DNA of 40,398 nt from Chloroflexota bacterium (lineage in GTDB: Bacteria; Chloroflexota; Limnocylindria; P2-11E). Below are positions 7,499-22,603 of the stretch, in pieces; position 1 is the stretch's first letter; each line of letters starts with the position of its first letter. The stretch covers positions 1-40,398 of the forward strand of contig VBFY01000007.1 of NCBI GenBank assembly GCA_005889405.1, in the 5' to 3' direction. Below the pieces are notes generated by a model. That model did not search any database. It was not told where the DNA came from and saw only the letters and a program-made list of their open reading frames with translations. The translations under genes and the position numbers were made by a program.

Positions 7499-9133
7499 AT
7501 GAAGCTCGACCTGTCTTCGTTCCCATTCCGCACGACATCAGTGTTGGTCGTCGCCGCGCTCGCGGTGTCCGCGTGTGCAAGCCCGACACAGCCTGGAGCA
7601 TCCACGGCTCCGTCCGCGCAGGCCGGGCCGGTGTCCGGCGGGACGGTGACGATGCCGATCGGCGCGGACCCAACGCTCAACCCGTGGAGCCCGAACGCCT
7701 TCATCGAATCGTTGTTCATCAATCGCGTGCTCTTCGACGGTCTGACGAAGCCGGGGAAAGACCTCGCGCCCGCGCCGGATCTCGCCGAGAGCTGGACCAC
7801 GGCGTCCGACGGCCTGAGCTGGACGTTCAAGCTCCGCAGCGGTGTGAAGTGGAGCGACGGGACTCCGTTCACCGCCGACGACGTGGCATTCACCTTCAAT
7901 GACATCGTCCTCAAGCCCGATCTCGGTGCGCAGAACCGTGCCAGTTACGCGGCGGTGAAGAGCGTCACCGTGGTCGATGCGACGACGGTGCGCTTCGATC
8001 TCAGCCGTAAGTTCGCGGCCCTCCCATCGTTCCTCGCGTATAACGCGGGCATCTTGCCGAAGCACGTGCTGTCGGCCAACCCACTGACCACCACCACTTT
8101 CAACAAGGGCACCCCGGTCAGCACCGGTCCCTTCAAGGTCGACAAGTACACGTCTGGTCAAAGCGTTTCGTTGGTCCGCAACGAGAATTACTTCGGGGCG
8201 AAGGCGTTCCTCGACAAGCTCGTGTTCACCGTCGTGGCGGATCCGAACACGCAGGTCGCGCAGGCGCTCTCCGGTGACCTGCAGATCATGATCTTGGACA
8301 ACAAGGCGGCCGTCGATCGCATGAAGAGCGCGGCGGGCCTGAGCGTCGTGGCACGCCCGCTCGTGCAGTACTACTGGCTATCGCTGAATCAGACCGATAG
8401 CCGCTTCACCGACGTGCGCGTCCGCCAGGCCTTCGTGACCGCGATCGATCGCGCCGCGATCATCAAGTCCGTCGAGCTCGGGTACGGCTCGATCGCGAAC
8501 AGCCCGATCACGCCGGCCCTCGCGGCGTACTACGACCCGTCGCTCGCATCGAAGTACCCGTATGACCCCGCGAAGGCCACCGAGCTGCTGAAGGCCGCGG
8601 GCTGGACCCCGGGCGCGAACGGCGTCCTCCAGAAGGATGGCAAGCCCTTCCAGTTCACCATGGACGTCGGGCAGCGCGGCGTTCTCGAGCCCGTCAACGC
8701 GCTGATCCAGCAAGACCTCAAGAAGGTCGGCGTGATCGTCGACCTCAACACGATGGAGTGGAACTCCTACATCCAGAAGGACGTCGTGCGTCGCGAGTAC
8801 ACGGCGACCGTGAACTGGTGGACGTACCCGAGCGACCCGGACGTCTTCCCGTACTACCACTCGAGCGCTGCCGGGAAGGGCTTCAACATCCCGGGCTACC
8901 AGGACCCCAAGCTCGATGACCTGCTCGTGCAGGGGCAGAGCACGAGTGATCTCGAAGCCCGCAAGGCCGTGTACAAGCAGCTCCAGCAGTACACGTCCGA
9001 GGTGCTGCCGTACCTCTTCCTCTGGTACCCGCAGGAGATCGACGTGCTGAGCACGTCACTCAAGGGCGTGCCGGAGCTCGGCCTCCGCGACGCCATGCAT
9101 TACGCCGGCGAATGGTGGTTGGCCAAGAAGTAG
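7499..9133 (+). CDS. ABC transporter substrate-binding lipoprotein, family 5 (peptide/nickel type)
   Basis: Extracytoplasmic binding protein of the DppA/OppA family (SBP_bac_5), 544 residues. A signal peptide ends in the lipobox Val-Ser-Ala-Cys near residue 27, followed by a Ser/Thr/Pro linker. Family motifs include FDGLTKPGKDLAPAPDLAESW, then LRSGVKWSDGTPFTADDVAF, and the late YDPAKATELLKAAGW. Ligands of this family are usually di- or oligopeptides, but other solutes are common. It is first in an operon with two cognate permeases; the next gene starts inside its 3' end. No ATPase genes follow. The nearby M19 dipeptidase makes a peptide ligand plausible. Confidence 0.92.
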   Translation: MKLDLSSFPFRTTSVLVVAALAVSACASPTQPGASTAPSAQAGPVSGGTVTMPIGADPTLNPWSPNAFIESLFINRVLFDGLTKPGKDLAPAPDLAESWTTASDGLSWTFKLRSGVKWSDGTPFTADDVAFTFNDIVLKPDLGAQNRASYAAVKSVTVVDATTVRFDLSRKFAALPSFLAYNAGILPKHVLSANPLTTTTFNKGTPVSTGPFKVDKYTSGQSVSLVRNENYFGAKAFLDKLVFTVVADPNTQVAQALSGDLQIMILDNKAAVDRMKSAAGLSVVARPLVQYYWLSLNQTDSRFTDVRVRQAFVTAIDRAAIIKSVELGYGSIANSPITPALAAYYDPSLASKYPYDPAKATELLKAAGWTPGANGVLQKDGKPFQFTMDVGQRGVLEPVNALIQQDLKKVGVIVDLNTMEWNSYIQKDVVRREYTATVNWWTYPSDPDVFPYYHSSAAGKGFNIPGYQDPKLDDLLVQGQSTSDLEARKAVYKQLQQYTSEVLPYLFLWYPQEIDVLSTSLKGVPELGLRDAMHYAGEWWLAKK

Positions 9134-10074
9134 CTCGCTTCCTTTTCCAGCGCATCGCGTCGGGGGCGCTCGTGATCGTTTTCGCGAGCGCCCTCACCTT
9201 CTTCTTCGTCAACCTCGCGCCTGGCGGCCCGAGCTCCATCATGCGGTTCGACGTGAGCGCCGAGCAGCGCGAGGCCTTGATCAAGCGCATGGGCCTCGAC
9301 AAGCCGGTGGTCGAGCGCTACGCGGATTGGGCGGCCGGCGCGATCCGCGGCGACCTCGGCACCTCGCTCCTTTCGGATGAGCCGGTGACACAGCGCATCG
9401 GCGAGCGTTTGCCGAACACTCTCATACTCGCCGGCGCCGCGCTGGTCGTGTCGATACTGATCGGCATTCCCATCGGCCTCATCCAGGCGCTGCGTCGCGG
9501 GAGCGCTCTCGATCACCTTCTCAGCTTCTACAGCGCGATCGGGCTCGCGGTGCCGGTCTTCTGGCTTGGGATCGTGCTCATCCTGGTCTTCGCCGTCTCG
9601 CTTGGGTGGCTCCCTTCCGCGGGCGTGACGACGATCTCCGAGGACACGCTCGTCGAGCGGCTGCGCCACCTCGCGCTGCCGACGGTCGCGCTCGCCACGA
9701 CGACCCTTCCGACGATCGTGCGCTTCATGCGCTCGGCGGCGCTCGAGGTGCTCGATGAGGATTACATCCGGACCGCAGCATCGAAAGGACTCGCGCCGCG
9801 CGTGGTGGTGACGCGGCACGCCCTCCGCAACGCGCTCATCCCCGTGGTGAGCGCCGTCGGGGCCCTCGTGCCGCGGCTCCTCGGCGGCACGGTGGTGACG
9901 GAGTCGGTCTTCAGCTGGCCGGGCATGGGTCGCCTCGCGCTGGAAGCCGCGCAGGGACGCGACTACCCGCTGATCACCGGCATCACCGTCGTCGTCGCCG
10001 GGATCGCGGTCGCGACGACCCTGCTCGTCGACCTCGCGTACACGCGAATCGATCCAAGGCTGCGGGCGTCGTGA
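9112..10074 (+). CDS. ABC transporter permease, DppB type
   Basis: Inner-membrane subunit of a peptide-type importer, 320 residues with six predicted helices. The N-terminal segment FFFVNLAPGGP and the GIPIGLIQALRRGSALD region are typical of DppB. The coupling-helix (EAA) motif is DYIRTAASKGLAPRVVVTRHALRNALIPV around residues 220-248, followed by the VTESVFSWPGMGRL motif. The ATG at 9112 lies 22 bases inside the upstream gene, so translation is probably coupled. It joins the next gene by a GTGA overlap. Confidence 0.93.
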   Translation: MVVGQEVARFLFQRIASGALVIVFASALTFFFVNLAPGGPSSIMRFDVSAEQREALIKRMGLDKPVVERYADWAAGAIRGDLGTSLLSDEPVTQRIGERLPNTLILAGAALVVSILIGIPIGLIQALRRGSALDHLLSFYSAIGLAVPVFWLGIVLILVFAVSLGWLPSAGVTTISEDTLVERLRHLALPTVALATTTLPTIVRFMRSAALEVLDEDYIRTAASKGLAPRVVVTRHALRNALIPVVSAVGALVPRLLGGTVVTESVFSWPGMGRLALEAAQGRDYPLITGITVVVAGIAVATTLLVDLAYTRIDPRLRAS

Positions 10075-10874
10075 CGCGTCTCGGACTGTTCGCCTTGGCG
10101 ACCCTCGGCGTGATCGCCGTGCTGGTCGTGGCCGGGCCGCTCTTCTGGACCATCGCGCCCGAGACGACCAATCCCGCGCAGGGGCTCGCTGGGCCGAGCC
10201 TCGTACATCCGCTGGGCGCCGACGAGCTCGGGCGGGATGTGCTGAGCCGCCTTCTTCACGGCGGCCGCGTCACGCTCCTCGTTGGCGTCGCCGCCATGCT
10301 CGCTTCGCTTCTCATCGGTGTCGTCGTGGGCGCGATCGCGGGTTTCAATGGCGGCTGGCTGGATGCGCTCCTGATGCGCTTCACCGATGGGATGCTCGCT
10401 GTGCCGGCGTTCTTCTTCATCCTCGTTGTTATCACGCTCGTCGGTACGAGCGTAGGAACGCTCGTGTTGGTGATCGGCGCGCTCTCGTGGATGCCGGTCG
10501 CGCGCGTCGTCTACGGCGAGACGCTGCGGTGGAAGACCGCCGAATTCGTGGTCGCCGCGACCTCGCTCGGCGTGCCACCGCCGCGCCTACTGGTGCGGCA
10601 CATCCTTCCGCAGGCGATCCCGTCGCTTGTCGTGTCGGCGACGCTCGGTGTCGCGTTCGCCATCCTCACTGAATCGGCCCTCAGCTACCTTGCGTTCGGC
10701 GTTCAGCCGCCGCTGCCGTCGTGGGGCAACATGCTGCAGCGCGCGCAGCAGTACGTATTCACCGCGCCGGCGCTCGCCCTTTACCCCGGCCTCGCGATCA
10801 CAGTCGTCGTGCTCGCATTCAACTTCCTCGGGGACGGTCTGCGCGACGCGCTGGACCCCCGCCGCCGTCGCTAG
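10071..10874 (+). CDS. ABC transporter permease, DppC type
   Basis: Second membrane subunit of the peptide-type importer, 267 residues. Family motifs are HPLGADELGRDVLSRLLHGGR near residue 46, the coupling-helix segment TSLGVPPPRLLVRHILPQAIPSLVV, and ESALSYLAFGVQPPLPSWGNML near the C-terminus. The GTG start at 10071 overlaps the dppB-like stop (GTGA). The transporter lacks ATP-binding subunits in this window, so it must use ATPases encoded elsewhere. The stop TAG forms part of the next gene's -10 box. Confidence 0.93.
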   Translation: MTRLGLFALATLGVIAVLVVAGPLFWTIAPETTNPAQGLAGPSLVHPLGADELGRDVLSRLLHGGRVTLLVGVAAMLASLLIGVVVGAIAGFNGGWLDALLMRFTDGMLAVPAFFFILVVITLVGTSVGTLVLVIGALSWMPVARVVYGETLRWKTAEFVVAATSLGVPPPRLLVRHILPQAIPSLVVSATLGVAFAILTESALSYLAFGVQPPLPSWGNMLQRAQQYVFTAPALALYPGLAITVVVLAFNFLGDGLRDALDPRRRR

Positions 10875-17862: not shown

Positions 17863-19311
17863 CTAAGGGCCGTCGCCTCGGGCTAACTCGAGCGTCACTG
17901 CCATCACGACATCGCCGGCTTTCTGCAGCCGAGGTGTCTCGATGAGCGCGATCGTGTCGCGCGGAGTGTGCAGGATGATGTCGCTCCAGAGGATCAGCGA
18001 CGATGGAACGCCGCGTTTCGCGAACGTCGTTTGATCGCTGCCACCGCCGCGGATCGATTGGAACGGGATGCCCAGGCGCGCGGCGGCCGCGCGGATCCGG
18101 TCCGCGAGCGCCGCGCTCTCGTCCGATGCCTCGAGCGTGTTGCCGCAGCAGCCGATGACATCGAGGTTGAGGTACGCGACGAGACTCTCGACGCGTCCCG
18201 GGGAGCTGGCCATCCGGCCGGCGTAGGCCTCGGAGCCGAGCAGGCCCTCCTCTTCGCCGGCCCACGCGACGAAGACGACCGAGCGTCGCAGCTCGGCGCG
18301 CCTGGGCGCGAGCGCGCGCGCGACCTCGATCGTGACCGCGGGTCCGGATGCGTTGTCGTTCGCTGCGGTGAAGATCGTGCCACTCGGGTCGGTGCCGACG
18401 CCATCGAGGTGTCCGCCCACGAGCACGGCGCGCTTCGACAGATCGGGATCGCTCGCGCGGAGCAGACCGATCACGTTCACGCCCTCGACCTCGTGCACCG
18501 GAGTGAGTGGGAGCGTCATGCGCACGCTGACGCTCGTCTCGAACGCGGGCGATGGCGCCGCGGGATTCGACCGACGCGCGCGAACGGCGTTCTGGACCTG
18601 CGCGACGGTCTTCGACGCGGGGGCCAGCAGCTCGTTGGCAACGCTCTCGGTGATGACGAGCACCGGAATCGTATCCGCGAAGAAGTGCGGGATGAATGAA
18701 TAGCGGATCGAGGTGTCGCCGAGCACCAGGACGCCGACCGCGCCCTCGGCGAACGAGGTCTCGACCGCGCTGCCGGCTGTCGGCCCCGTGATGAGCGCGA
18801 TGCGTCCGCGGGTCGTCACACCGGCGAAGTCATCCTGGCCAGCGCCCTTCGCCGCTCCGCCGACCACCACGACCGGCGCCTCGGCGGTCCCGTTCCCGGA
18901 ACGCCCGCCAACGCTCTCGGTGAAGTCGACGCGGTGCGTCCACGACTTCGCGTCGGCACCGGTGCGCGTGAGCGCCGGCGTCGCGGTGAGGTCCACGAGC
19001 GGCATCGGGAAACGCTGGAAGTACGTGCCACCGTCGCCGAGCGGCTCGAGGCCGATCGCCTTGAACTGGTCCGCGACGTACTGCGCCGCGTCGCGATAGC
19101 CGGGCGATCCGCTGTACCGGCCGCCACGCGCCGGGTCGGCGAGGTAGGCGATGTGTTCCCGCGCCCGCGTGCCGTCGAAGACGCCGGTCCCCGCGACAGC
19201 TGCGGCCGACGACGGCGAGGCCGCGGTGGATACGCGTGGCGTGGGCGACGCGCCTCCGGTCGCGGGTCCGCATGACGCGACGAGCAGCGCAGCCACGACG
19301 AGACGCCTCAT
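17863..19311 (-). CDS. M28-family aminopeptidase lipoprotein with PA-like insert
   Basis: A 482-residue secreted metallopeptidase. The signal peptide ends in Val-Ala-Ser-Cys (Cys14), so it is probably lipid-anchored outside the membrane, followed by a Ser/Thr/Ala/Pro linker. The N-terminal part of the peptidase fold starts near residue 47, and a protease-associated-type insert covers about 140-250. The co-catalytic zinc motifs are all present: GGHLDG (about 300), NDNASG (about 318), the catalytic glutamate in WAGEEEGLLGSEAY (about 352), NLDVIG (about 383) and LHTPRDT (about 448). It should trim peptides outside the cell. It is a close paralogue of the peptidase half of the upstream fusion gene and overlaps it by ATGA. 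Confidence 0.9.
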   Translation of the reverse strand: MRRLVVAALLVASCGPATGGASPTPRVSTAASPSSAAAVAGTGVFDGTRAREHIAYLADPARGGRYSGSPGYRDAAQYVADQFKAIGLEPLGDGGTYFQRFPMPLVDLTATPALTRTGADAKSWTHRVDFTESVGGRSGNGTAEAPVVVVGGAAKGAGQDDFAGVTTRGRIALITGPTAGSAVETSFAEGAVGVLVLGDTSIRYSFIPHFFADTIPVLVITESVANELLAPASKTVAQVQNAVRARRSNPAAPSPAFETSVSVRMTLPLTPVHEVEGVNVIGLLRASDPDLSKRAVLVGGHLDGVGTDPSGTIFTAANDNASGPAVTIEVARALAPRRAELRRSVVFVAWAGEEEGLLGSEAYAGRMASSPGRVESLVAYLNLDVIGCCGNTLEASDESAALADRIRAAAARLGIPFQSIRGGGSDQTTFAKRGVPSSLILWSDIILHTPRDTIALIETPRLQKAGDVVMAVTLELARGDGP

Positions 19312-21680
19312 CCCGCCGCCGCCAACTCGAGCACCGACTGGAGCACGACCTCGCCTGACGCGCGCAGCCGCGCGGGATCGACCGTCGCGGGGGTGTCGCC
19401 GACGGTGTGGAAGGGCCCGAGGTCCGTGCCCGAGATCATCACCGCGGGCACGCGCCGACGCAGGAACGTGACGTGGTCGCTGCCGCCGATGCCGGACGTG
19501 TAGTCGAGGTCGTAGCCGAGTCGATCCGCGGCGGACTTCACGCGTTGATGGAGCTCGAAATTCTCGTCGGAGGCCGCGAGACCACCGCAGCAGCCCTCCA
19601 TGTCGAGGTCGATGAAGGCGACGACGTTGTCGGCGCGGTACGGCGTCGTGACGGAATTCGCCATGAACGCTTCCGAGCCGACGAGTCCCTCCTCCTCGCC
19701 GGCGAAGGCCACGAAGATCACCGAGTTCTTGAGCATCGCTTTCTTCGCGGCGAGCACGCGCGCGACCTCGATCGTGACGGCCGGCCCCGAGGCGTTGTCG
19801 TTCGCCGCGGGGAACACCGACCCGTCGGGATCGCTGCCGACGCCGTCGAGATGCCCGCCGATGATGACGAACTTCTTCGCGCGCTCCGGATCGCTCCCGC
19901 GCAGCATGCCAACGACGTTCATCGTCCGGATCGGCTCGAGCGGCGCGAGCGAGACCTCGACGCGCACCCGCGTCGGCGTGTCGAACGAGAGCGGCTCCGG
20001 CGCCGTACGGATCAGGCTCGGACGCTGGTCCGAGCGGCGCCGTCGCTCTTCGAGCGTCTTACGCAGATCGGCGATGTGCTTTCCGGACGGCGCGATGAGC
20101 TCGTCCGCAACGGCTTCGCTGACGGTGATGACCGGCAGCGTGTCCTTCTCGAAGAACGCGACGTAAGACGGTCGGATGATGCCGCGATCGGCCGGCGAGA
20201 CGAAGATGACCGCCTTCGCGCCGGAGCGGATCGCGGCATCGATGGGGTCGCCCTGCGTCGGACCGGCGATCATGACGATGTTCCCCTCGGGATGCGTGCC
20301 CTGATAGTCGCTGTACTCCTGCGTGCGGATACCGCCACCGACATACACGACGTTGCCTTCGGCCGTTCCGCTGCCGGCGCGACCGCCGACGCGCTCGCTG
20401 AAGTCCGCACGCGGCTGATACGTCTTGGGATCCTCGCCGACGCGCTCCAGCACGGGCATCGAGGTCAGCTTGACGATGTTCGTCCCCCAGTTCTGGAAGT
20501 ACGTGCCGTCGCTGCCCAGCGGCTCGAGTCCGATGGACTTGAACTGGTCGGCAACGTAACGCGCCGAGTCGTTGAACCCGGCGGAGCCGGTGTAGCGACC
20601 GGCGCGCGAAGGATCGGACAGCCAGTCAACGTGCGCCCGAGCGCGCGCCGCGTCGAATTCGCGCGCGGCCGCGACGAAGCTCCCGGCGGGTCCGAAGTAC
20701 GGGCTCGCGAGCCGGAGGGCGACGAAGACCGCGAGCACCGCGACCGCGGTGCGCAGCGTCAGGAGCTTGCCGAGTGCGACGGGTGCGCGCTCGAAGAAGG
20801 TCCGCAGGCCGTGGCCGACGAGGTTGAAGCCGAGGATGGCGCTCGCGAACGCGGTCGCCGGGACGAGCGCGATCCAATGGGCGCGATAGATCTCGAATTT
20901 GCCCTGTGCGAGGATCGCGCCCCACTCGGTCGTCGCGAAGATGAACTCGGTACCGCCGCCGCGACCGGTCACGTCGGTCGACACGTTCTGTCCACCGCCG
21001 ACGACGATGCCGAGGAATCCGAGCTCGCCGAGCACGAGCAGGATCGCGCTGGCCTCGAGCGCCGCGGCGACCGCGAGCATCGGCAGCAGGTTCGGGAGCA
21101 CGTGACGCGCGAAGACCGCGAACTCGGACAGGCCCAGCGAGCGCGCGGCCTCGAGGAAGGGCCGTCCGCGGAGCGCGACCACGGCGGACCGCGTCGCGCG
21201 GCCGAAGCCCCACCAGCCCGTGATCGCGAGCGCCGCGGCGAACGCGCTGACGCCCGACCGGATGTCGAACGCGAAGATCCAGAGCATCGCGAACAGGACG
21301 GTCGGAAAGGCGCCGAACGCATCGATGAGCGCCGAGACCGCACGATCCATGGTGGAGCCGGCGAACCACCCGGCGACCGCACCGAGCGTCGTCCCGACGA
21401 CGAGCCGCGCCGCGAGGACGATGAACGCGATCCCCAGGGTCGCGCGCGCTCCATACATGACGCCCGCCCACAGGTCTCTGCCGCTACGGTCCGAGCCCAG
21501 CGGGTAGCCATAGGTCCCGGGGTCGTAGGGCGCGAGGACGGAGCGCGGGCCGTCGATGATCAGCGTGGTGCTCTTGAGGGGGTCGACGTTCGTGAGAAGC
21601 GGCGCCGCGATGCCGAGGACGATCCAGCCGCCGATGATCGCGGCGCCAACGATCAGCTGCCAGGTGAGCGCCCGTCGCAT
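19308..21680 (-). CDS. DppC-type ABC permease fused to an extracytoplasmic M28 peptidase
   Basis: A 790-residue two-part membrane protein. Residues 1-290 are a DppC-like permease: TM1 at 8-28, YPLGSDRSGRDLWAGVMYGAR at 59-79, and the coupling-helix motif EAARSLGLSEFAVFARHVLP at 177-196. An extra hydrophobic helix (about 309-325) would carry the chain across the membrane again. From about 340 there is a complete M28 peptidase with PA-like insert. Metal and catalytic residues are intact: His610 (GGHLDG), Asp628 (ANDNA), Glu662/663 (GEEEG), Asp693 (DLDMEG) and His758 (FHTVGD). The ATG at 21680 shares a base with the stop of the DppB-like gene (TGATG). It probably couples peptide trimming to import. 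No frameshift or stop interrupts the join. Confidence 0.9.
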   Translation of the reverse strand: MRRALTWQLIVGAAIIGGWIVLGIAAPLLTNVDPLKSTTLIIDGPRSVLAPYDPGTYGYPLGSDRSGRDLWAGVMYGARATLGIAFIVLAARLVVGTTLGAVAGWFAGSTMDRAVSALIDAFGAFPTVLFAMLWIFAFDIRSGVSAFAAALAITGWWGFGRATRSAVVALRGRPFLEAARSLGLSEFAVFARHVLPNLLPMLAVAAALEASAILLVLGELGFLGIVVGGGQNVSTDVTGRGGGTEFIFATTEWGAILAQGKFEIYRAHWIALVPATAFASAILGFNLVGHGLRTFFERAPVALGKLLTLRTAVAVLAVFVALRLASPYFGPAGSFVAAAREFDAARARAHVDWLSDPSRAGRYTGSAGFNDSARYVADQFKSIGLEPLGSDGTYFQNWGTNIVKLTSMPVLERVGEDPKTYQPRADFSERVGGRAGSGTAEGNVVYVGGGIRTQEYSDYQGTHPEGNIVMIAGPTQGDPIDAAIRSGAKAVIFVSPADRGIIRPSYVAFFEKDTLPVITVSEAVADELIAPSGKHIADLRKTLEERRRRSDQRPSLIRTAPEPLSFDTPTRVRVEVSLAPLEPIRTMNVVGMLRGSDPERAKKFVIIGGHLDGVGSDPDGSVFPAANDNASGPAVTIEVARVLAAKKAMLKNSVIFVAFAGEEEGLVGSEAFMANSVTTPYRADNVVAFIDLDMEGCCGGLAASDENFELHQRVKSAADRLGYDLDYTSGIGGSDHVTFLRRRVPAVMISGTDLGPFHTVGDTPATVDPARLRASGEVVLQSVLELAAAG

Positions 21681-22603
21681 CAGGACGCTGCCCCGGTCGA
21701 TGCGTGGACCAGGCGCGACGCGGCCGCGTCGAGCACGAACCGCACGATCGCGATCGTCACCACGAGCGCGCCGAGGAGCGTGCCGGCGGTCGCCGCGTCG
21801 AACCTTTGGATCGCCTGCAGCAGCGAGAAGCCCAGGCCCGGCCACGAGAAGAACACCTCGACGACGGGCAGCGTGGAAAGACCGATCGAGAGCGCCGCCG
21901 CGATCGCGCCGAGGATCGGGACGAGCGCGTTCCGCAGCGCGTGGCGACTGATGACGACTCGCTCGAGCAGGCCCTTGGACCGTGCGGTCCGCACATAGTC
22001 CGCGCCGAGCTCTTCGTCGACGGCGACGAAGGCGAAGTTCGCGATCTGCGCGAACGGACGGGCGGCGAGCACGAGCGTCGGAAGGATGAGGTGGTCGTCG
22101 ATACCGAAACCGAAGCTCGGCCAGAGCCGCACGTTGTAGCGGCGCACCATCTCCGCCGACAAAAGGATGAGCAGGATCGCGAGAAGGAATGACGGCAGCG
22201 AGATCACAGCCATCGTGCTACCGACGAGCAGCGCGCGCAGCCGTCGACTCCGCGTGGCGGCCGCAACGACACCGACGGCCACGCCGAACACCGTGGCCAG
22301 GGTCACGGCGAGGCCGACGAGCAGCATGCTCTTGGGATACGCGTCGAAGAGGACCTCGCCCATCGAGCGCCGCCGCCCGCCGAGGATCGATGTCGACGTC
22401 GCTTCGCCGAGCGAGCCCTGGAACAGACTCGAGAAATAGTCCTGCGTGCCTTCCCATGCCTGCTGCAGGATGTCGCCGAGCGGCGCGTGATCGAAGCGCG
22501 TGCGCGCCGCGACGAGCGCGATCTGCGCGAGCACGACGATGAGAACGAACGTGAAGATGACCAGCAGGACCCGCGTGAGGACCGCGATCGTGGCGCGACT
22601 CAA
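21680..22603 (-). CDS. ABC transporter permease, DppB type
   Basis: A 307-residue permease, partner of the fused DppC-like subunit. Motifs are SMGEVLFDAYPKSMLLVGLAV, the coupling-helix segment DYVRTARSKGLLERVVISRHALRNALVPI, and VVEVFFSWPGLGFSLLQAI near the C-terminus. The start is taken as TTG 22603 because it gives a short basic N-terminus before TM1 (MSRATIAVLTRVLL). The longer frame upstream runs antisense through metG and is rejected. This TTG overlaps the TGA of a seven-codon leader frame as TTGA. No binding protein or ATPase gene is in this operon. Confidence 0.85.
   Translation of the reverse strand: MSRATIAVLTRVLLVIFTFVLIVVLAQIALVAARTRFDHAPLGDILQQAWEGTQDYFSSLFQGSLGEATSTSILGGRRRSMGEVLFDAYPKSMLLVGLAVTLATVFGVAVGVVAAATRSRRLRALLVGSTMAVISLPSFLLAILLILLSAEMVRRYNVRLWPSFGFGIDDHLILPTLVLAARPFAQIANFAFVAVDEELGADYVRTARSKGLLERVVISRHALRNALVPILGAIAAALSIGLSTLPVVEVFFSWPGLGFSLLQAIQRFDAATAGTLLGALVVTIAIVRFVLDAAASRLVHASTGAAS

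Follow-up and report, generated by a model that had tools for sequence, protein, structure and literature searches.

Why should the permease of a nutrient importer end in a peptidase? The question is raised by a gene on contig VBFY01000007.1 (assembly GCA_005889405.1) of a soil Chloroflexota bacterium, of which a stretch of 40,398 nucleotides, here called the window, was analyzed. This gene, P0001, joins in a single frame a permease of the DppC type, an added transmembrane helix (TM7) and a domain of peptidase family M28. The reading that we prefer, with a probability slightly below one half (about 0.47), is that P0001 acts as a tethered exopeptidase at the mouth of an importer and trims peptides for uptake. 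The gene and its parts are as follows, with coordinates in the window and lengths in amino acids (aa).

19308..21680, minus strand: DppC-M28 fusion gene P0001, 790 aa; one stop-free frame, both Pfam domains, full-length homologues.
20787..21395, minus strand: BPD_transp_1 core, residues 96-298; Pfam E-value 6.8e-18, phmmer matches to the solved DppC/OppC chains 8z1v, 8z21 and 8wd9.
21075..21161, minus strand: EAA-type ATPase-coupling loop, residues 174-202; conservation in fused relatives.
20697..20756, minus strand: added transmembrane helix TM7, residues 309-328; AlphaFold helix, Kyte-Doolittle window peak at 306-324.
19311..20651, minus strand: PA-containing M28 aminopeptidase fold, residues 344-790; best Foldseek match 2ek8, E-value 3.5e-25, TM-score (target) 0.76.
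19335..19919, minus strand: Peptidase_M28 catalytic domain, Pfam residues 588-782; Pfam E-value 5.8e-35, ligand check.

The frame (window:19308-21680, minus strand) translates to 790 aa with no internal stop. Since the DNA has about 70% G+C and the opposite strand carries a spurious frame of 863 aa, its length by itself proves nothing. P0001 is regarded as real because homology extends over the entire frame in further genomes and because both halves are under purifying selection. Within the taxonomic family of the window genome, the full-length architecture recurs in G016 (88% identity), G014 (69%) and, from a different genus, G028 (64%); in more diverged form it is found all over Chloroflexota. 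In G013, also of this family, junction and M28 half are retained, with a deletion or frameshift near permease residues 145-175. Comparison of the window with G016 gives ratios of nonsynonymous to synonymous substitution rates (dN/dS) of 0.045 (permease), 0.25 (TM7 with the linker) and 0.17 (M28 half). Independent assemblies and this selection rule out a chance frame or an assembly artefact. The original prediction, made from the letters of the window only, had described one frame of 790 codons with a DppC-like permease, an extra helix and a complete M28 peptidase, and had named a stop or frameshift at the junction as the point where it might fail; looked at via the other assemblies, the junction stands, and so does the description, as both Pfam domains exceed their cut-offs and all metal and catalytic residues are present.

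The N-terminal part of P0001 is most likely the DppC-type half of a predicted peptide ABC importer. It scores 65.5 bits against BPD_transp_1 (curated Pfam cut-off 26.4) and stays under all NCBIfam equivalog cut-offs, with Opp2C as the best (146.6 of 300 bits) and PRK10913, i.e., DppC, at 86.4 of 483, which places it outside the curated DppC/OppC equivalog. Its ATPase-coupling loop is intact; across the fused relatives G183 and P196 of this loop are invariant, and E177, H193 and N197 occur in 45/48, 46/48 and 45/48 sequences, respectively. With the solved DppC/OppC permeases (8z1v, 8z21, 8wd9) it thus has in common the permease core, the EAA coupling loop and a DppB partner, but it adds TM7 and an outward M28 domain, lacks a local ATPase and substrate-binding protein (SBP) and remains far under the equivalog cut-offs.

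The C-terminal domain is modelled, with high confidence, as a PA plus M28 fold of the aminopeptidase type. Foldseek ranks 2ek8 first, followed by P. aeruginosa PaAP and B. subtilis BSAP and then by the ectodomains of GCPII and the transferrin receptor. The Peptidase_M28 score is 121.2 bits (curated Pfam cut-off 21.3). All five metal ligands (H610, D628, E663, D693, H758) and the catalytic base E662 are found, as is D612, and from these residues the domain is predicted to be an active exopeptidase. The PA-domain aminopeptidases of family M28 (2ek8 from Aneurinibacillus AM-1, BSAP/YwaD 6hc6, PaAP 8ac7) share this fold, the complete ligand set and the catalytic Glu; they are, however, separate enzymes, whereas in P0001 an importer permease carries the domain at its C-terminus.

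On which side of the membrane does this domain lie? Classical DppC has six helices and its C-terminus inside. In the AlphaFold model of P0001, built from the 53-row alignment A4 (mean pLDDT 87.7), the DppC helices are followed by a further helix (309-328) and a compact C-terminal domain. In 45 of the 48 fused relatives the mean hydropathy of the TM7 region rises above 1.6, and in all 48 fused sequences lysine and arginine are richer before TM7, on the inner side, than after it (mean 4.8 versus 1.4). The nearest sequence relatives of the fused M28 domain are secreted or lipid-anchored enzymes. As the DppC core ends inside after the sixth helix and is followed by a conserved TM7 with inner positive charge, the M28 domain of P0001 very likely faces the outside. 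That an extra helix turns the C-terminus outward had been proposed beforehand, with a topology prediction as the check, and charge pattern, hydrophobicity and model agree in placing the M28 domain outside and not in the cytoplasm; of the helix put at about residues 309-325 the existence was right, while its modelled extent reaches to 328.

On these grounds the following mechanism may be considered. The DppC half, its C-terminus flipped outward by TM7, would carry a complete domain of the PA-M28 aminopeptidase type and would assemble into an importer with the adjacent DppB-type permease and with ATPases encoded elsewhere. Held at the channel mouth, the peptidase would trim peptides, and the trimmed products might be imported before they diffuse away. 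Several observations weigh against this reading. Of 74 fused domains scored, 69 have no complete catalytic site; the window-clade fused M28 domains group with stand-alone M28s and not with other fused domains; the window operon has no SBP gene; and DppBC-type channels usually import di- or oligopeptides, while aminopeptidases, the closest folds, release single amino acids.

The first of these points has the widest consequences. Site scoring covers 74 fused domains of sufficient length, and the complete site (five ligands and catalytic Glu) is found in only five of them, namely in all four members of the window clade that were scored (P0001, L008, L009, L010) and in L070, which stems from a marine rock biofilm. 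L099 has the five metal ligands and a Val at the position of the catalytic Glu, and in 47/74 domains two ligands or fewer are left. These losses are patterned: D612 is retained in 48/48 fused relatives, and Q610 occurs together with R693 in 24/74 domains (P0001 numbering; among L075-L143), as if arginine had replaced the metal. Judged by their residues, most fused M28 folds are pseudo-peptidases, an exception being the window clade with its intact catalytic site. In most genomes the architecture can therefore not be explained by a coupling between hydrolysis and import. The original prediction had a peptidase on the import channel that feeds its products to it; the physical tie is borne out by the single frame, but as the general purpose of the architecture such feeding does not hold. 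Because most relatives keep the fused fold without its catalytic site, the function shared across the family would probably be the binding or positioning of peptides, and the window clade would have retained catalysis or gained it again. Peptide capture is the more likely widespread role.

A related observation concerns the window genome itself, which encodes a second DppC fusion (contig C87, L037:1710-4121) with an M28/PA tail without metal ligands. The tail still has the M28/PA fold (model pLDDT 77.6; Foldseek match 2ek8, E-value 7.4e-16). Fusions of this kind, with all metal ligands lost, are also represented by L038 and L042-L046 in several genomes of the same family, and L039-L041 are a further divergent kind of DppC fusion.

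If most of these domains are dead, the M28 fold on DppC may serve in P0001, too, mainly to capture peptides, either as a stand-in for an SBP or as a docking site for one; the catalysis of the window clade would then be a side effect or a refinement that came later. The rarity of complete sites suggests this when taken together with a cleft whose conserved and substituted positions look like a specialized pocket rather than random decay, as do the metal-free M28/PA fold on the second DppC of the window genome and the transferrin receptor ectodomain among the close fold matches. But five metal ligands and the catalytic Glu are kept in every scored member of the window clade, and such retention would hardly be selected in a mere receptor. 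We hold this explanation for P0001 to be rather unlikely, even if it is the strongest of the alternatives.

The descent of the M28 domains bears on a further explanation. The M28 tree places the four fused domains of the window clade together with stand-alone M28s from their own order (starred branch, 98), and the fused domains of Anaerolineae form a separate clade (96*). One clade of all fused M28 domains is rejected by the approximately unbiased (AU) test (p-AU 7.9e-6). Since this constraint fails, a living M28 domain may have been swapped in, a second fusion may have occurred independently, or the stand-alone copies may derive from a fused ancestor. The permease tree separates the stand-alone DppCs, as a single group (100*), from every permease with a C-terminal domain, but its deep branches are too weak to decide among these three histories, and L047 stands beside the stand-alone group. 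One might suppose that TM7 merely holds a secreted M28 enzyme at the membrane in place of a lipoprotein anchor and has nothing to do with transport, in line with the grouping with stand-alone relatives of the lipoprotein type, most of which carry a lipobox in the same family, one of them in the very same operon. Lipid anchoring is already available there, however, so that joining the enzyme to a permease would bring no gain if the purpose were only to anchor it; besides, the fusion recurs throughout Chloroflexota, persists without catalysis and includes DppB as well in 47/80 loci. We consider such a mere anchor improbable.

A polyprotein is even less probable. TM7 would then be an internal signal sequence and signal peptidase would free the M28 domain after export, for which A337-A338-A339 of P0001 with its resemblance to an AxA site could be quoted; but position -3 varies (at 337 the relatives commonly have P, R, Q or K), the hydrophobic stretch is a full transmembrane helix of about 20 residues and the putative site lies about 11 residues past it, so that release by signal peptidase is disfavoured for want of a conserved cleavage site. 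A cytoplasmic M28 domain that processes imported peptides inside, as the inner C-terminus of classical DppC might suggest, is hardly credible in view of the conserved seventh helix, the charge pattern and the homology to secreted M28 enzymes and lipoproteins.

How far is the fusion distributed? A scan of genome contigs (about 85,000 genomes) with the junction alignment as query yielded 80 loci, nearly all from Chloroflexota, with Anaerolineae prominent, plus one metagenome-assembled genome (MAG) of Myxococcota and two of Bipolaricaulota. An M28-like tail is present on 79 of the 80 loci, and 47 include DppB in the same open reading frame (ORF) as DppB-DppC-M28; as the permease-side patterns and the junction query favour fused members, counts among the 80 loci are no frequencies. 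A well-assembled example of the triple fusion is G255 (1192-aa ORF, 10 contigs, 98% complete). In the viral contigs scanned no relative of the fusion was found. It is conceivable, tentatively, that these genes represent a class of peptide ABC importers found across Chloroflexota, with an M28 fold on the permease that takes the place of the SBP or complements it, is active in a few clades (trimming and import) and a dead receptor in most, and often shares a single chain with DppB and DppC. Some loci deserve separate mention. Those labelled Myxococcota or Bipolaricaulota (L121, L142, L143) are either transfers or mis-binned contigs. The sole relative without a tail (L138:2444-3562) has a frame that ends at the permease end, on a contig with genes of DppD/F-like ATPases, and is either an unfused relative or a frameshift. 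L047:2978-4972 is a DppC with a tail of about 360 aa that matches no Pfam family and is unlike M28.

Extracytoplasmic domains covalently tied to a transmembrane domain are known from the importers EgtUBC, GlnPQ and OpuA/OpuF, to which P0001 is alike in its predicted arrangement; an outward domain on the permease C-terminus has precedents in EgtUBC (PMC9732360) and GlnPQ (PMC8025302). In those importers the tied domain has an SBP fold, in contrast with the M28/PA fold of P0001, an enzyme by sequence. The transferrin receptor ectodomain is an M28/PA fold on a membrane protein that has no peptidase activity and binds cargo, and it is comparable with the dead fused relatives only: this receptor is single-pass and no ABC permease, whereas P0001 keeps its active site. 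What sets these fusions apart is not an outer domain on an importer but a peptidase fold in this position, mostly dead. A full-text search of the open-access literature, with most subscription journals and preprints outside its scope, found no description of a permease-M28 fusion; the earlier remark that its author knew of no described importer with this architecture agrees with this, but the fusion is no one-off: it occurs widely among Chloroflexota, and DppB is often part of it, too. Its recurrence in dozens of Chloroflexota with the catalytic residues almost always lost suggests that a nutrient importer took over an enzyme and kept it permanently, as a part for docking or processing. As a rule, digestion outside the cell and uptake are two separate processes, and the products leak to competitors; an importer with its own peptidase would, if true, solve this in a direct physical way. 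With their dead domains the relatives form a ready-made series that leads from an enzyme to a presumed receptor, and one can ask of them whether the binding component of an ABC importer may be a peptidase fold. Chloroflexota abound in soils, sediments and digesters, habitats in which the degradation of peptides is important.

The gene context supplies the remaining parts of the system. Two neighbours flank the fusion gene.

21680..22579, minus strand: DppB-type partner permease P0002, about 299 aa, start codon not settled; Pfam BPD_transp_1 E-value 1.1e-22.
17863..19311, minus strand: separate M28 peptidase P0003 with lipobox signal; Pfam; its start overlaps the fusion stop (ATGA).

The operon thus consists of DppB, DppC-M28 and a lipoprotein M28, with overlapping stops and starts; the TGA of DppB overlaps the ATG of the fusion gene (TGATG), and DppB is likewise the neighbour in L008, L009 and L010. 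P0003 is about 48% identical to the M28 half of P0001 and has an intact ligand set; M28 genes of its type also follow the fusion in G016, G014 and G013. ATPase or SBP genes were looked for in the operon beside the fusion gene and none were seen. In the window genome five DppD/F-type ATPases stand against 17 SBP_bac_5 genes and about 60 BPD_transp_1 matches, i.e., few ATPases are common to many importers, and an ordinary SBP_bac_5-DppB-DppC operon at window positions 7499-10874 (plus strand), 10 kb from the fusion, has no adjacent Pfam match to an ATPase either. Since 17 SBP_bac_5 genes are paired with five such ATPases and the plain operon is likewise without one, the local absence of an ATPase is ordinary here, and the idea that the fusion is non-functional for want of an ATPase is rejected.

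Among the 28 relatives whose contigs extend 5 kb or more to both sides, four (L079, L086, L092, L100), all from Anaerolineae, show a strong match to DppD/F together with an SBP, the fusion standing beside a cluster of SBP, ATPase and permease, and three more have a weak match to an ATPase profile. Directly upstream of the DppB-DppC-M28 fusion a lipoprotein-like protein of about 590-610 aa without clear Pfam family is encoded in L100 (L100:6086-7843), L092, L103 and L079. At 14 loci a gene next to the fusion encodes a member of one cluster of large proteins, most of them 1.5-2 kaa long, and those scanned carry two M28 domains; in Anaerolineae they lie repeatedly just downstream of fused permeases (L057:1982-6778, L069:12959-17800, L124:13881-18767 and others), and one of them also has a Peptidase_MA_2 match.

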